Positions 1,482 through 53,194 of a stretch of 54,705 nucleotides of DNA are shown piece after piece. The stretch's first letter is position 1, and each line of letters begins with the position of its first letter. Location of the stretch: assembly GCA_903828565.1 (NCBI GenBank), contig CAIKMQ010000043.1:1-54705 (forward strand). Reading direction: 5' to 3'. Below the pieces are notes generated by a model. The model worked only from the letters and a program-made list of their open reading frames with translations, ran no database searches and was not told the origin of the DNA. Origin of the DNA: an uncultured Leptolinea sp. (GTDB lineage: Bacteria > Chloroflexota > Anaerolineae > Anaerolineales > Anaerolineaceae). A program made the position numbers and the translations under genes.

Positions 1482-1782
1482 GCAGTATAAACTCATCATG
1501 ACCTGGGATATCGCTCCCACCCGCGAACGGGAATATTTTGAGTTCGTGGTGCGCGTCTTCCTGCCTGCCCTGCAGCGCATGGGGTTGGATGTCAATGAAG
1601 CCTGGGCCACCGCTTACGGCGACCAACCACAGATACAGGTTGGCGCGCAAATGCCAGACCTGAACCGTCTGCAGCAGACGCTGCGCAGCCAGGAATGGAC
1701 AGACTTGCACAATCAACTGCTGGATTTCATCATCCATTACCAGCAGAAGATCGTGCGCGCGCGCGACCATTACCAGTTCTAA
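1468..1782 (+). CDS. Conserved-looking small protein of unknown function
   Basis: A 104-residue protein beginning MEAAEQYKLIMTWDI. I chose the ATG at 1468 because it overlaps the preceding stop by 14 bp and gives a sensible N-terminus; a longer in-frame start at 1405 would lie deep in the upstream gene. The sequence has a regular alternation of strand-like (YKLIMTWDI) and helix-like (REREYFEFVVRVFLPALQR) segments, compatible with a small ferredoxin-like or dimeric alpha-beta barrel fold, but no family motif is recognised. Its stop overlaps the mutY ATG (TAATG), so it is tightly coupled to mutY. Confidence 0.75.
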   Translation: MEAAEQYKLIMTWDIAPTREREYFEFVVRVFLPALQRMGLDVNEAWATAYGDQPQIQVGAQMPDLNRLQQTLRSQEWTDLHNQLLDFIIHYQQKIVRARDHYQF

Positions 1783-2867
1783 TGTCAGAGCTTCACCCGC
1801 TCAGCCGCCGGCTGCTGGATTGGTACGCGCGGCATGCGCGCAGCCTTCCCTGGCGTGAGACGCGAGACCCGTATGCCACCTGGGTAGCTGAGATTATGCT
1901 GCAGCAGACCCGGGTGGATACGGTCATTCCCTACTATCACCGCTGGATGACCCGCTTCCCGACCTTGCACACCCTGGCCGAATCCAGCCTGCAGGATGTG
2001 CTGGCATGTTGGGAGGGGTTGGGGTATTACTCCCGCGCCCGCTCCATGCACCGGGCCGCCGGTCTAATCATTCGCGATCACGGCGGTACCTTCCCCTCAG
2101 ATCTTCATACGCTGCTCAGCTTGCCAGGCATCGGCTCCAGTTCGGCAGCAGATATCCTTTCCATCGCCTTCGGCCAGGATATGGCAGCCTTGGACGGCAA
2201 CATCAAGCGGGTGATCGCCCGTCTGTACGACCTGCCGGATGAGTTGGACACGCCGGCTTTCCTGCGCCGCTGCCGGTCCCTGCTGGATGAGCTGCTTCCA
2301 TCAGGCCGTGCGGGGGATTTCAACCAGTCGCTGATGGATCTCGGCGCCGGCATCTGCCTGCCAGGGGTGCCATTATGCGATACCTGCCCGCTCTCTGAAA
2401 ACTGCCTGGCCCGCGAGCGCCAGTCCCAAGCCACGCGCCCGGTCACACGGCCGCGTGCCGCCATTCCACATGTTCAGGTCACGGCAGGCGTGCTGTTGCA
2501 GAGTTATAACCACAGCCAGCAGGTGCTGATAGCCCGCCGTCCGCAATCCGGCCTGCTGGGTGGTATGTGGGAATTCCCCGGCGGTAAGCAGGAAGCGGGT
2601 GAGAGCCTGGATGCCAGCCTGATACGTGAACTGCATGAAGAATTGGGTGTGAGTGTGGAGGTCGGTCGGAAAGTGGGTGTTTTCAAGCACGCCTATACGC
2701 ATTTCCGCGTCACCCTGCATGCTTACCTCTGTCACATTCTTTCCGGCGAGCCGTCCGCGCTCGCTGCCGATGAGATCCGCTGGGTCACATTGCCTGACCT
2801 GTCCGGCTACCCGATGGGTAAACTGGACCGCATGATCTCAGAAGCGCTGGTGAAATTGCCTGACTAG
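1782..2867 (+). CDS. mutY: A/G-specific adenine glycosylase MutY
   Basis: 361 residues. It removes adenine mispaired with 8-oxoguanine. The catalytic Glu is in AEIMLQQT (Glu37), the helix-hairpin-helix in LPGIGSSSAADIL (114 onward), the catalytic Asp in LDGN (Asp138), and a 4Fe-4S cluster motif C-x6-C-x2-C-x5-C spans 192-208. The C-terminal domain (about 232-345) is NUDIX-like and carries the FKHAYTH element that resembles the 8-oxoG reader of MutY. Residues 268-290 match the complete Nudix box G-x5-E-x7-RE-x2-EE-x-G, which most MutY proteins have lost. The start at 1782 overlaps the preceding stop; the longer frame from 1695 lies inside the upstream gene and is rejected. Confidence 0.95.
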   Translation: MSELHPLSRRLLDWYARHARSLPWRETRDPYATWVAEIMLQQTRVDTVIPYYHRWMTRFPTLHTLAESSLQDVLACWEGLGYYSRARSMHRAAGLIIRDHGGTFPSDLHTLLSLPGIGSSSAADILSIAFGQDMAALDGNIKRVIARLYDLPDELDTPAFLRRCRSLLDELLPSGRAGDFNQSLMDLGAGICLPGVPLCDTCPLSENCLARERQSQATRPVTRPRAAIPHVQVTAGVLLQSYNHSQQVLIARRPQSGLLGGMWEFPGGKQEAGESLDASLIRELHEELGVSVEVGRKVGVFKHAYTHFRVTLHAYLCHILSGEPSALAADEIRWVTLPDLSGYPMGKLDRMISEALVKLPD

Positions 2868-27137: not shown

Positions 27138-27195
27138 TATAACCTGGGTAGACTCCATTGGACAAATGAAATGAACAGAATTGAAACTCATTCCT

Positions 27196-27204
27196 TGGTA
27201 TGAT
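27196..27204 (+). promoter_or_regulatory. Extended -10 promoter of the peroxiredoxin gene
   Basis: TGGTATGAT at 27196-27204 precedes GGAGG (27226-27230) and the ATG at 27238. Confidence 0.45.
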
Positions 27205-27237
27205 AGACTCTATCTATCTGATCTTGGAGGAGTTCCC

Positions 27238-27981
27238 ATGAAACATTTGAAAGTAGGAGACCGGGCACCAGATTTCACTCTGCCCAGCCATCTGGACACA
27301 AGTGTGAAACTGAGCAATTTACGCGGAAAAGCTGTAGTCATCGCCTTCTTCCCACTAGCCTGGACGCCTGTCTGAACTGCACAGATCCCGTCGTATGAGG
27401 CTGAACTCAGCCGTTTCGCGGGATTAAATGCCCAGGTTCTGGGCATCAGCGTGGATCACGTTCCCTGCCTGAAGGCATGGACTGAAACATTTGGCGGTAT
27501 TCATTATCCCATTTTGAGTGATTTCTGGCCGCATGGCGATGTCGCCAAAAAATACGGAGTACTGCGTTCTGAAGGGTACACCGAAAGAGCCATTTTCATC
27601 ATCGATGACGCAGGAATCATCCGCTACATTGATATCCATGATATCAGTGAACAACCGGATAACAGGATCCTGTTCGCGGAATTGAAGAAGCTACGCCCGA
27701 ATTATCAAGAACCCGAAGAAGTTGCCGATACTTCTCAATTACCGCACGGCGGGATCGTGATGTACTGCACAAAATGGTGCCCCGAATGCCGGCAGGCCCG
27801 CGCCTGGTTTACTGAAATGATGATGCCTTACACCGAAGTGGATGTGATGTCCATTCCCGGGGCTGATACCCAGGTGCGGGAATGGAACAATGGCAACCTG
27901 ACCACCCCCACTTTTGATATCAATGGCCAGATACTCACAGGGTTCAATCGTGAGCGCATCACTCAACTTTTGAAAAGTTAA
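27238..27981 (+). CDS. Peroxiredoxin-glutaredoxin fusion, probable selenoprotein (Sec at in-frame TGA)
   Basis: Reading through the TGA at 27373-27375 gives 247 residues in one frame. Residues 1-150 are AhpC/TSA-type peroxiredoxin: [13 protein letters not shown], then [22 protein letters not shown], then VLGISVDH and [19 protein letters not shown]. The TGA (residue 46) sits exactly where the peroxidatic Cys of the PLAFTPVCTxQ motif belongs, so it is read as selenocysteine. Residues about 165-247 are glutaredoxin-like: [13 protein letters not shown] (CPEC), TTPTF with cis-Pro, and a final helix. The natural fusion would let the Grx domain reduce the peroxidase. GGAGG lies 7 bp before the ATG. 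The alternative, a nonsense mutation or sequencing error, is less likely because the rest of the frame is intact. No Sec-insertion gene lies in the window. Confidence 0.82.
27373..27424 (+). promoter_or_regulatory. Sec UGA codon and candidate bacterial SECIS hairpin
   Basis: Starting 10 nt after the UGA, ATCCCG (27385-27390) pairs with CGGGAT (27419-27424). Inside, either GGCTG/CAGCC or TGAG/CTCA forms the apical stem; the latter gives a GCTGAA loop beginning with G, 24 nt after the UGA. This spacing and loop fit the loose bacterial SECIS consensus. A folding and SECIS search is needed to confirm. Confidence 0.55.
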
Positions 27982-27995
27982 TTACGAACCGCCCA

Positions 27996-28022
27996 CCCTC
28001 TGCATTCCGCAGAGGGTTTTTT
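27996..28022 (+). terminator. Terminator of the peroxiredoxin gene
   Basis: CCCTCTGC-ATTCC-GCAGAGGG followed by six T residues. Confidence 0.92.
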
Positions 28023-48990: not shown

Positions 48991-51900
48991 CTATGCTACA
49001 GCTGTCCAGTAATCTGCTAATTTGGACGCCTGATCGAGTACTTTATTGACGGAATCGGTATATTCACCCGTTGTTGGATCGTCTGGTGGGTATTTATATT
49101 TTCGCAAAATACGCTTTACCAGTACCCTCATTTTTGATTGCACACTATGTTTTTGTTGCCAGTCGATCGAGGTATTCCGTCTTACTTTTTCGGTAAGTTC
49201 GCGGGCAATCTGCCTGAGTAGCTGATCTCCGAGTAAATTTTCTGCATTGTGGTTATCTGCGAGCGCGTCATAAAAGGCTAACTCGTCCTGACGTAGATTT
49301 AACTTCTCGCCACGCGCATCAGCAGCACGGATATCCTTAGCCATTTGGATCAATTCCTCTAGAATTTTGGCAGAATCTATCAGCCCATTCTGGTAGCGCT
49401 TGACAGCCTCCGCCAACATCTCGGAGAATTTTCGCCCCTGTACCATATTCATTTGACCGCGAGTTTTAATCTCATGGTTGAGCAAGCGTTTGAGCAATTC
49501 AAGCGCCAGGTTTCTGCGTTCCATGCCCTGGATTTCAGCTAAAAATTCATCAGAAAGGATGGAGATATCCGGTTTACGAATGCCCGCTGCATCGAAAACG
49601 TCGATCACTTCGCTGGAAATAATCGCGTCATTGATAATCTGTCGAATAGCTGTTTCTATTTCTTCATTGGTGCGTGTCTTCGTGGTCTCATCAAACTTGG
49701 CAAAACGGGCTTTGATGGCCTGAAAAAAGGCCAGATCATTGCGGATTTCAAGCGCTTTCGGGTGAGGAACCGCCAACCCAAAAGCTCTTTGAAACCGAAT
49801 GACATTTTCTTTAAAGCGTTCTTTTCCATTGCGGATTATGCTGCCATCATTGACTTCAGATAGATCAGCAATGTAATTTGCAGCATCAAGTATGAAATTG
49901 AGTTTTAATTTTGGCTCAAGTGAGAAATAGCGGTGATAGTCGAATCGTCCGAACATATCCACCACGATTTCGTAAAACTCGAGCATCTTAGCGACAGCTT
50001 CTTCCTGATCAAAGGCGATCTGTCCTTTGCCCTGGCTGGCAGCGTACACCAACAGCGCATTTTTCAAATCCTGGGCAATTCCGATGTAATCTACAATCAG
50101 ACCGCCTTCCTTGTCACCAAAGACGCGGTTCACGCGAGCGATAGCCTGCATGAGGGTGTGCCCGTTCATCGGTTTATCGATATACATGGTGTTCAGACAG
50201 GGTGCATCAAACCCGGTGAGGAACATATCCCGGACGATGATCAGCTTGAGCGAATCATTGGGGTCTTTCAGGCGGTTGCCAATGGCCTTGCGCCGATCCT
50301 TATTGCGGATATGCTCCTGCCAATCCAGCGGATCGCTGGCCGAGCCCGTCATTACGATCTTGATCGCTCCTTTGTCATCCTCGGCGTTATACCACTGCGG
50401 ACGCAGCTTGATAATTTCTTTTTGAAGCGCCACGCAAATGCGCCGGCTCATGCAAACGATCATACCCTTGCCGTCTGCAGCGGAAATGCGCTGCTCAAAG
50501 TGATGGACGATATCCGCAGCCACTTGTTTGAGCCTGTCAGTACTGCCAACCACTGCTTCTTTGCCTGTCCATCTGGCAAAACGCCTTTGCTTATCGGTCA
50601 GTTCGTCGTCTTCGGTGACTTCTTCGACGCGTTCATCCATTTTCTTCTGGTCAGCCGCAGAGAGTTCGATCTTGGCCAACCGGCTTTCGTAGAAGATGCG
50701 CACAGTCGCGCCGTCTTCCACAGCTTGCTGAATGTCGTAGATATCGACATAATTGCCAAACACCGCCTGGGTGTTTTTGTCCTCTTTTTCAATGGGAGTG
50801 CCGGTGAACCCGATAAACGAGGCATTCGGCAAGGCATCGCGCATGTGCCGGGCGAAGCCGTCAATAAAATCGTACTGGCTGCGGTGAGCTTCATCCGCGA
50901 TGACGACCACGTTGCGACGCTCGGTCAGTGTGGGATAGACGCTACCATTTTCTTCGGGAAAGAATTTTTGGATGGTGGTAAAGACGATTCCACCGGAAGC
51001 CACCGAAAGCAATTTTTTCAGGTCTTCGCGGTTGGCAGCCTGCACCGGGGTCTGGCGTAATAATTGCTGACAGTTGCTGAATGTCTCGTAGAGTTGCTGG
51101 TCGAGGTCATTTCGGTCGGTCAGCACCACCAGGGTGGGGTTGTTCATTTGCTCAGCCAGTACCATTTTACCGGCATAGAAAACCATGGAGAGGCTCTTGC
51201 CGCTGCCCTGGGTGTGCCACACCACCCCTGCCCGTTTGTCGCCTTTGGGTTGGGCTTCGACAGTTGGCAGCCCATAAACAGCCGGGTGTTCAGCCGCAAA
51301 GTGTCCATTCTCATTTGCCGAAGCTCGCAAGGTGGAAACGATGGCTTTGTTAACCGCGAAATACTGGTGGTAGGCAGCCACCTTTTTGATAGTTTTTTCT
51401 TTAGTCTTTTCAAAAACGATAAAGTGACGGATGATATCCAGCAAAGTCGTCTTGTTTAACAAACCCCTGATCAAGGGTTCCAATTCGGGTTGGTGTTTTG
51501 AATCAACCACCTGTAAACCATCCACGCTTTTCCACTCCATGAAGCGCGAATAATCACTGGAGATGGTGCCGGCTTTAGCAAACCAGCCGTCGCTGATGAC
51601 CTCAAAAGCATTGCAGGTAAAAAGGGAGGGAATTACCTGTTGGTAGGTTTGTAATTGGTGAAAAGCAGCCTGCACATCCGCTTTTTCATCCGCGGCATTC
51701 TTAAGCTCGATGACCACCACCGGCAGACCATTAATAAACAAGACGATATCCGGACGCTTGTTGGAATTGTTTTCCACCACCGCGAACTGGTTAACGGCCA
51801 GAAATTCGTTCTTATCACTTTCCGGATGTTCAAAATCCACCAGCCAGACCTTATCCGTGCGGCTTTTGCCATCGCCAACATTGAATTTCACGTCCACGCC

Positions 51901-52185
51901 TTCGGTCAGCATGCAGTGGAAGGTCTCGTTGTTGTCGATCACGGTTAATGCCTGGGTGCGCAGAGCTTTTTTGAAGGCCTCTTCGCGTGCTTCTTCCGGG
52001 ATGCGCGGGTTGATGCGGTCAATGGCAGTGCGCAGGCGGGTTTTCAGGATCACTTCGGTGAAAGTGCGTTCGGGGTGTGAGCCTTCTAATAGATCGGGAC
52101 CGTATGCAATGGAATAGCCGTTCTTATCACGCAGCAGCTCGAGGGAGATTTGTTCGATTTCGGATTCAAAAAGTATATTACTCAT
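48991..52185 (-). CDS. hsdR: Type I restriction enzyme R subunit
   Basis: 1064 residues. The PD-(D/E)xK nuclease lies at about 145-162 ([19 protein letters not shown]; Asp146, Glu160, Lys162). The translocase follows: [10 protein letters not shown] (Walker A, about 324-333), [20 protein letters not shown] and the late [13 protein letters not shown]-type motif VI (here [12 protein letters not shown]). The C-terminal helical domain should bind the HsdM/HsdS core. It cleaves unmodified DNA after translocation. It starts 7 bp after the stop of the HEPN gene. Confidence 0.96.
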
Positions 52186-52192
52186 AGGTCCC

Positions 52193-53194
52193 TCAAATCA
52201 CCAAATTACGTAATTGATTTTCCATAATTTCAAACGTGTTTTTTTCGAATTCTTGGTCCTGAGATTTACTAACCACTTCAAAATGAAATTTTCCACCTTT
52301 ATCTTGTTTATAGAAACAAATTATGGCGTTTGTTTCATATGCTTCCTGCGTAAAATGAATAAAGGGAGACAAACAAAAAACTTCCCCTTTTACTTGCGCG
52401 TAAATAGATCCTGAATTGAAATAGTCAACTATCTCAATATAATTATCTTTTTGAATGTGGATGAGTTCTTTTTTGCCATTCAAATCATTTCCATTTAATA
52501 TTTCACAGCGAGGATACAGTGGGGTTTCAGCTTCATGATATCGGAATACCACAACATCTTCCAGTTTTATCAATTGCCGCAAAACTAACTCTAATTGCGG
52601 ATAGAGTTCAGCGTATAGTGCTTTCTGTTGTGATGTAGTTTTCGCAGAGGCGTGTTCAAATCCATTCCGTTCTTGATTTAATTTTTTTATCAACCCTAAT
52701 GTTGAGATTGGAATAATGTCAGAGCAACAAAAGGCAATCCCACTTTTTGTTGTGTAATCCAGTATATTTTCAATGATAGTAAGTTTGTCAAAAAGTTTAT
52801 CACTCCAAAGTTTATCCCACTTGATCCCCAGGGATTTTAGTTCTAATTTTCGATGCCGGGCTTCTCCTACAACCAAGCCATACAAAAAAAACACGATTGC
52901 TTCCCAACAGGATTTAAGTAAATCAAGCCTGTGATGGTCATTTTGATAATTATTTGTTGCCTGGTAGAAGTAGTATGCAATTGGATTTGGAAACTTTTCT
53001 TCAATCCTGCTTAAACTTACTTTTGGGTCGGCTGCATACCTTGCCAATGCATCGGCATATTTTTCCCGACTCATTTTATAAAGGACTTCGCTCGATGGAA
53101 ATTCATACTCGTCAATTTCGACCAAGTAGTTTTCTACAAGCCACGTATTAAAGTCTGGGTTATCCGAAAAATCAAGAATTATTTCGTCACTCAT
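52193..53194 (-). CDS. HEPN-motif protein inside the type I R-M operon (unknown function)
   Basis: 333 residues, not recognised as any named family. The middle (about 75-215) is helical and contains [13 protein letters not shown]: Arg176-Asn-x3-His181 is the HEPN RNase signature R-x4-6-H with a polar residue after Arg. The C-terminal third (about 225-333) looks beta-rich ([26 protein letters not shown]). No Walker A or ABC signature is seen, unlike PrrC or RloC. Its ATG overlaps the hsdS stop (ATGA) and hsdR follows after 7 bp, so it is an integral member of the operon. A+T-rich like hsdS. Likely a toxin or effector guarded by the R-M complex, by inference from position. Confidence 0.7.

Follow-up and report, generated by a model that had tools for sequence, protein, structure and literature searches.

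The locus and its features

The window, that is, the whole stretch of 54,705 nucleotides analysed here, comes from an uncultured bacterium whose nearest relatives place it in Chloroflexota, and carries on its plus strand a gene for an AhpE-like peroxiredoxin joined to a glutaredoxin/mycoredoxin-like domain (Table 1). Its frame is interrupted by one internal stop only, the TGA that forms codon 46, and closes with a TAA at 27979-27981; translation thus bears out the earlier note, which had read this TGA (27373-27375) as the sole in-frame stop of 27238-27981, with both sides sharing a frame. Three Pfam families match the translation above their curated cut-offs, namely AhpC-TSA (3.2e-40, residues 6-131), Redoxin (4.3e-27) and Glutaredoxin (8.5e-10, residues 173-231; PF00462, 39.1 bits against a gathering cut-off of 22.9). 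Read with selenocysteine (Sec, U) at the TGA, the active site has the form P39-x3-T43-x2-U46 and agrees with the PxxxT/SxxC(U) pattern; together with the AhpC-TSA match, this upholds the proposal that a TGA replaces the peroxidatic Cys of an otherwise intact peroxiredoxin motif. The downstream CPEC of the glutaredoxin-like domain, also noted before, is the CxxC of that domain and lies within YCTKWCPEC. Over 100 codons past the TGA, compared with six chosen relatives, dN was 0.17-0.26 and dS was saturated or 1.7-2.3, and this low dN indicates constraint at the protein level on the part past the TGA. Ordinary gene finding would split such a gene, whose full-length product has a calculated mass of 28.0 kDa, at the TGA.

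Table 1. Features of the peroxiredoxin-glutaredoxin gene and its flanks, in window coordinates
Feature	Position	Strand	Basis
Predicted selenoprotein gene of 247 residues, AhpE-like peroxiredoxin plus glutaredoxin/mycoredoxin-like domain	27238..27981	+	frame with a single TGA, Pfam, homologues
Possible sigma-70-type promoter, TTGAAA-17-TAGACT, TG before the second hexamer	27181..27209	+	consensus match only
Shine-Dalgarno-like GGAGGAG ahead of ATG 27238	27226..27232	+	sequence
Peroxiredoxin domain, AhpE-like, about residues 4-152	27247..27693	+	Pfam, PDB and fold matches; end estimated
TGA as predicted selenocysteine 46, peroxidatic residue of PxxxTxxU	27373..27375	+	frame, homologue alignments
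SECIS-like hairpin, loop about 25-29 nt past the TGA	27384..27425	+	folds, covariation, recoding; RNAalifold against
Cys77 (Sec+31), candidate auxiliary resolving Cys	27466..27468	+	non-Cys in 9 of 47 TGA fusions
Glutaredoxin-like domain, about residues 173-247	27754..27978	+	Pfam, NCBIfam, PDB matches
Redox motif C177-x3-C181-PE-C184 of the glutaredoxin domain	27766..27789	+	translation, alignment
Intrinsic terminator-like hairpin with T run, directly 3' of the gene	27995..28022	+	scan

The flanking signals are of different weight. The promoter-like site is a possible one, a consensus match without evidence of function, and the scan found five such sites on both strands of the stretch where 1.6 were expected. 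The terminator-like hairpin was the only one found, with 1.1 expected in shuffles, so that the scan alone does not go beyond chance. Elsewhere in the window, 1599-2867 (plus strand) encodes a MutY adenine glycosylase that continues in the same frame into a MutT/Nudix-like C-terminal part, and 48991-52197 (minus strand) the HsdR subunit of a type I restriction system.

Recurrence of the TGA codon among relatives

A contig scan across genomes gave 275 confirmed loci, of which the best 80 were kept. From these best 80, 27 whole-length peroxiredoxin-glutaredoxin (Prx-Grx) fusions were aligned with that of the window, and this 28-row alignment has TGA in 25 rows, a Cys codon in three (L015, L023 and L037) and the motif YCxxxCxxC in all 28. 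A second survey, whose loci overlap in part with these rows, covered 151 genomes, a sample of a larger group, all belonging to the same order. Family matches were obtained in 33 of them, 31 over nearly the whole profile and two partial. The nearly whole-profile matches contain one internal TGA in 30 of 31 cases, the window included, and none in G032 (locus L101); of the partial ones, that of G084 is without the active-site part and has a TAA, and that of G123 has one TGA. When the peroxidatic codon was read in 30 loci fetched of the 31 (G082 was left out), it was TGA in 29 and TGC in one. Some rows of this survey have Phe in place of the Tyr of YCxxxCxxC. The fusion is carried by two of the 17 listed genomes of the window's own taxonomic family, and it also occurs in rows from metagenome-assembled genomes (MAGs) titled Actinomycetota (L028, L030 and L035). 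A cultured relative, Anaerolinea thermolimosa, has a copy with TGA as well (L027).

We then counted distinct rows, rows that were too short, or alike in the part compared, having been dropped beforehand (for example L068, a TGA row cut at a contig end). The 102 that were left comprise 47 TGA fusions and 4 Cys fusions, together with stand-alone peroxiredoxins bearing TGA (7), Cys (42) or Ser (2). In the alignment of homologues, exactly the TGA codon is occupied by TGA or Cys, with Ser in two distant stand-alone peroxiredoxins, and among fusions TGA alternates with Cys only. The recurrence of TGA at one codon across other genomes excludes chance, and the fusion is no one-off but a family whose members come mostly from genomes titled Chloroflexota. 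The two Ser proteins (L058:4139 and L065:4148) are AhpE-like proteins of Terriglobia with AGC at the peroxidatic position, within YPLNWEPVS, and are perhaps no longer peroxidases.

In a quick tree of the peroxiredoxin domain of the 102 rows, the Sec/Cys/Ser state changes six times and the fusion state twice, and Cys fusions stand beside TGA fusions at three places (supports 91-93); deep support is low in this tree, with 36 of 99 inner branches open, so that the origin of the fusion and transfers cannot be placed on it. Four stand-alone AhpE-like TGA genes, from deltaproteobacterial and Syntrophia-like MAGs (L033:2459, L034:4130, L036:2798 and L038:1563), lie inside the fusion group, adjoining the window (support 82), and a transfer accompanied by loss of the Grx domain is a possible explanation of this placement.

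Gene neighbourhoods were compared at 42 loci, and no conserved partner gene was found among them. The large second cluster of this comparison (32 loci) is most likely an antisense frame of the gene itself, and the clusters after it hold at most eight loci.

A SECIS-like hairpin next to the TGA

Bacterial SECIS elements are hairpins just 3' of the TGA, with an apical loop about 16-37 nt away and a G at its start. In most TGA rows of the family, folding gives a long hairpin beginning about 8-11 nt past the TGA; the loop begins 25-29 nt past it in 57 of 57 rows, and in 49 of the 57 a G occupies one of the first two loop positions or the 5' closing position. Because some loop falls within the 16-37 nt range in 27 of 29 Cys rows too, the spacing alone is not diagnostic.

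RNAalifold returned no consensus structure for the 57-row alignment, which in our reading is due to slippage of the upper stem between rows. We therefore read a structure off the folds of the individual rows and used it for pair counting, so that the counts below come from the same 57 TGA rows (53 distinct) from which the structure was derived; the upper stem of the window itself is offset by one base from this structure. The structure pairs 78.4% of cells, compared with 70.6 +- 0.8 in shuffles and 24-47% in slid versions of itself; 72 cells carry changes on both sides, where shuffles give 30.3 +- 4.3, and the covariation score is 0.275 against 0.164, and none of 500 shuffles reached the observed value of any of these three measures. 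The other two of the five measures were not above shuffles, these being pairs with changes on both sides (7 versus 6.6) and further pair types (23 versus 20.9).

In the 29 Cys rows, which are less GC-rich than the TGA rows (0.45 versus 0.53) and mostly more distant, the same structure pairs 39.3% of cells, no better than its slid versions (21-42%). Under synonymous recoding, the TGA rows gave a mean z of -2.36, with p <= 0.05 in 46 of 57, and the Cys rows a mean z of -0.21, with p <= 0.05 in 4 of 29. The hairpin of the window (-21.7 kcal/mol) has a recoding p of 0.01 and a dinucleotide-shuffle z of -3.37. Two of the Cys fusions, L023 and L037, have no such hairpin (recoding p 0.82 and 0.64), and that of L015 is weak (p 0.10).

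The Rfam search gave no SECIS match. A covariance model of the family hairpin (R1), run against the window's own genome, scored the window site at 60.7 bits and the next site at 15.9 bits (E 0.845), without singling out selD; since the window was among the sequences used to build the model, the match there confirms nothing.

Selenocysteine machinery in the genome

The source assembly (2.22 Mb in 48 contigs, 99.25% complete) contains all four genes for Sec insertion that the earlier note had named for a search. selA lies on contig C40 (5.1e-127), selB on C10 (331 bits, cut-off 242), selD on C9 (354 bits, cut-off 125) and the tRNA-Sec gene on C40 (70.8 bits, cut-off 47), the last being called tRNA-SeC with anticodon TCA by ARAGORN as well; all are on contigs other than that of the fusion gene, in an assembly with 2.44% estimated contamination. 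The selD gene (G000:C9:15133-16065, minus strand; L096) has itself one in-frame TGA, located in the active site (SNCAG-U-ASK), and is likely a second selenoprotein gene of this genome. The window contains 39 long stop-to-stop frames that for the most part do not overlap, and not all of which need be genes; TGA closes 16 of them and is therefore an ordinary stop elsewhere in this DNA.

The link between the family and the machinery was also followed across genomes. All 33 family-bearing genomes of the order have a SelA match, compared with 119 of 151 overall (118 above the cut-off), which corresponds to a hypergeometric p of 1.2e-4 with relatedness ignored; the reverse link fails, as 86 of the 119 SelA genomes of the order are without the fusion. 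Among 15 genomes reached by locus, SelA was found in 14: every one of the 10 that have a TGA gene (8 fusions and 2 stand-alone peroxiredoxins), two of the three that have a Cys fusion, and both of those whose Cys peroxiredoxin stands alone. The only genome without SelA is that of the Cys fusion L015, whose completeness is not given; the Cys fusions L023 and L037 are in genomes that do have SelA.

The two domains and their known counterparts

The seven top PDB rows for the peroxiredoxin domain by sequence are all AhpE of Mycobacterium tuberculosis (best 6.5e-27). In a fold search with an AF2 model (pLDDT 87.8, pTM 0.71, Cys substituted for Sec), AhpE took ranks 1-12, with TM scores by target of 0.84-0.93 and an rmsd of 1.3-1.4 in 11 of the 12. 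Thus, both by sequence and by predicted fold, AhpE (Rv2238c; PDB 1xvw, 4x0x and 5id2) is the protein nearest to this domain. The earlier note had pointed to PrxU of Eubacterium acidaminophilum (PF00578, TxxU), and this likeness holds for the kind of protein, a Sec peroxiredoxin with its peroxidatic Sec in PxxxTxxU, but not for the subfamily, because the PrxU equivalog NF040737 scores 67.9 bits, below its cut-off of 270, and AhpE is nearer. That Sec-containing peroxiredoxins are known, as the earlier note says, agrees with a 2026 inventory (PMC13188914), which lists the TxxU family among the prokaryotic selenoprotein families verified by experiment.

Cysteines other than the peroxidatic position differ among members. 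At Sec+31, a column read at a fixed offset from Sec, 38 of the 47 TGA fusions have a Cys (Cys77 in the window) and nine do not; AhpE has a Thr aligned with it. Six of these nine have no Cys in the peroxiredoxin domain besides the Sec, and through the end of the Grx motif their only cysteines are the three of the motif.

The first PDB match of the Grx domain is the glutaredoxin 7c10 (3.6e-6) and the second is mycoredoxin-1 (2lqo, 1.3e-5). Among NCBIfam models, the domain is nearest to YruB-type glutaredoxins and mycoredoxins and under the cut-offs of both, with 54.4 bits for the YruB-family model TIGR02196 (cut-off 88.55) and, for the domain alone, a lower 41.4 bits for the mycoredoxin model TIGR02200 (cut-off 89.5). 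Mycoredoxin-1 (Mrx1, Rv3198.1) is the known reductant of AhpE in M. tuberculosis: according to Hugo 2014, as cited in PMC4360819, AhpE-SOH is reduced by Mrx1, and reviews also cite a mycoredoxin-independent reduction of AhpE by mycothiol. With a peroxiredoxin domain nearest to AhpE, which Mrx1 recharges, the gene joins a peroxidase to the kind of glutaredoxin known to recharge it; the M. tuberculosis pair consists of two separate Cys proteins, whereas here both are in a single chain with a predicted peroxidatic Sec.

Two other groups of proteins resemble the fusion in part. HUGP/GUXX-star fusion selenoproteins (NF045501) and Uxx-star (seleno)proteins share a Grx-like domain and, going by their names, bear Sec in that Grx-like part; their matches to the Grx domain here, which has Cys only, are weak and below cut-offs. 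The Prx5-Grx hybrid of Haemophilus influenzae has its peroxiredoxin first and a peroxidatic Cys. This hybrid (1nm3), which also holds both domains in one chain, appears at Foldseek ranks 22 (246 alignment columns) and 24 (260 columns), and belongs to the Prx5 class (PMC2757866), with 20% identity and an rmsd of about 11 over both domains. Low identity, high rmsd and a different peroxiredoxin class together suggest that the fusion described here probably arose independently of 1nm3.

The genome has one thioredoxin reductase match above the curated cut-off, only one other glutaredoxin-domain match and, for the bacillithiol enzyme BshC, no match.

Discussion

Our data make it very probable that the gene encodes a selenoprotein peroxidase, namely an AhpE-type Sec peroxiredoxin with a fused glutaredoxin as its probable reductant. 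The Sec peroxiredoxin-glutaredoxin reading of the earlier note is thus strongly supported, as far as sequence can carry it. Taken part by part, insertion of Sec at codon 46 is predicted with near certainty, a peroxidase function is highly likely, and the Grx domain, by analogy with the AhpE-Mrx1 pair, is probably the protein's own reductant. We propose that SelB, directed by the hairpin that follows the UGA, would place Sec at codon 46, a step for which the component parts were found, and that Sec46, in an AhpE-type active site, would reduce a hydroperoxide and be converted to selenenic acid, as expected from the family. The C-terminal Grx-like domain would then reduce the selenenic acid in place of a separate mycoredoxin-1, through dithiol exchange at Cys181/Cys184; in many members, including that of the window, Cys77 could first trap Sec as a selenenyl sulfide. 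Electrons would most likely come from thioredoxin reductase and thioredoxin, a preference based on the thioredoxin reductase match above the cut-off and the lack of a BshC match in the genome.

The alternative that survives best accepts the Sec peroxiredoxin, assigns other substrates to the Grx domain and makes thioredoxin or a low-molecular-weight thiol the reductant of Sec46. The existence of close stand-alone Sec peroxiredoxins (L033, L034, L036 and L038) indicates that the Grx domain is not strictly needed, and Cys77 could be an internal resolving Cys reducible by thioredoxin. We nevertheless regard this alternative as unlikely, since AhpE is reduced by a mycoredoxin (PMC4360819; a route through mycothiol is cited as well), the YCxxxCxxC motif is invariant in the 28-row alignment drawn from the best 80 of 275 loci, and six TGA fusions offer no thiol in the peroxiredoxin domain besides the Sec, which makes the fused Grx their likely reductant.

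The remaining alternatives concern the TGA itself, and we rejected each of them: a pseudogene, a sequencing error, a true stop and a general change of the code. A general reassignment of TGA (to Trp or Gly, for example), or near-cognate readthrough without Sec, would equally predict a TGA inside a conserved frame; it is very improbable, given that TGA serves as a stop for 16 of the 39 long frames of the window and that the fusions exchange TGA with Cys only, which is the pattern of Sec. Just as improbable is a true stop leaving a short fragment alone, or a downstream protein of 176 residues started at GTG 27451: the frame 27451-27981 does exist, but its product would start too late to include the peroxidatic residue or the first strands of the fold, the family conserves residues before as well as after the TGA, and the genome has a Sec system. 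Least credible of all is a Cys codon misread or mutated to TGA in one genome, since, although a one-base change turns TGC or TGT into TGA and Cys is present in four distinct relatives with the fusion, the 51 distinct fusion rows, which come from many assemblies, have TGA in 47 cases, with purifying selection downstream and a hairpin adjacent; the correction of TGA to TGT or TGC that the earlier note had named as a test is opposed by this recurrence.

Beyond an AhpE-type Sec peroxidase with a fused Grx domain, a more specific version, with roughly even chances of being right, describes a self-contained 1-Sec peroxidase in which the dithiol Grx would be the direct, intrachain reductant of the selenenic acid. 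Its further content, that a low-molecular-weight thiol takes no part and that some members operate with no resolving Cys in the peroxiredoxin domain, might hold or fail with equal ease. If true, this version would describe a natural AhpE-Mrx1 fusion, in lineages where Sec is the usual peroxidatic residue.

Sec peroxiredoxins and Prx-Grx hybrids are each known, and their union here is a new combination of known parts. The earlier note called a Sec peroxiredoxin with its own reductant domain unusual; this stands insofar as the table of 119 selenoprotein families and subfamilies in the 2026 inventory (PMC13188914) lists no Prx-Grx fusion, but the gene is no isolated case, a whole family having been found. 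In that table and among the papers listed from a mostly open-access literature, we found no Sec Prx-Grx fusion in print. The family provides a clean set of selenoproteins, mostly from Chloroflexota-titled genomes, with genes that standard annotation would split at the TGA. By joining an AhpE-like peroxidase to a mycoredoxin-like reductant, the fusion lends independent support to the pairing of AhpE with mycoredoxin, and it offers a one-protein system for the question of why peroxidases use Sec.

Natural Cys versions in close relatives, one of them with an intact hairpin, constitute ready Sec/Cys comparisons. The latter is the TGC fusion of L101 (1639-1695, minus strand), in which the hairpin has -19.2 kcal/mol and a recoding p of 0.02; its tree sister is a TGA gene (support 92), its genome (G032) has SelA, and, from these features of sequence and tree, it looks like a recent change from Sec to Cys.
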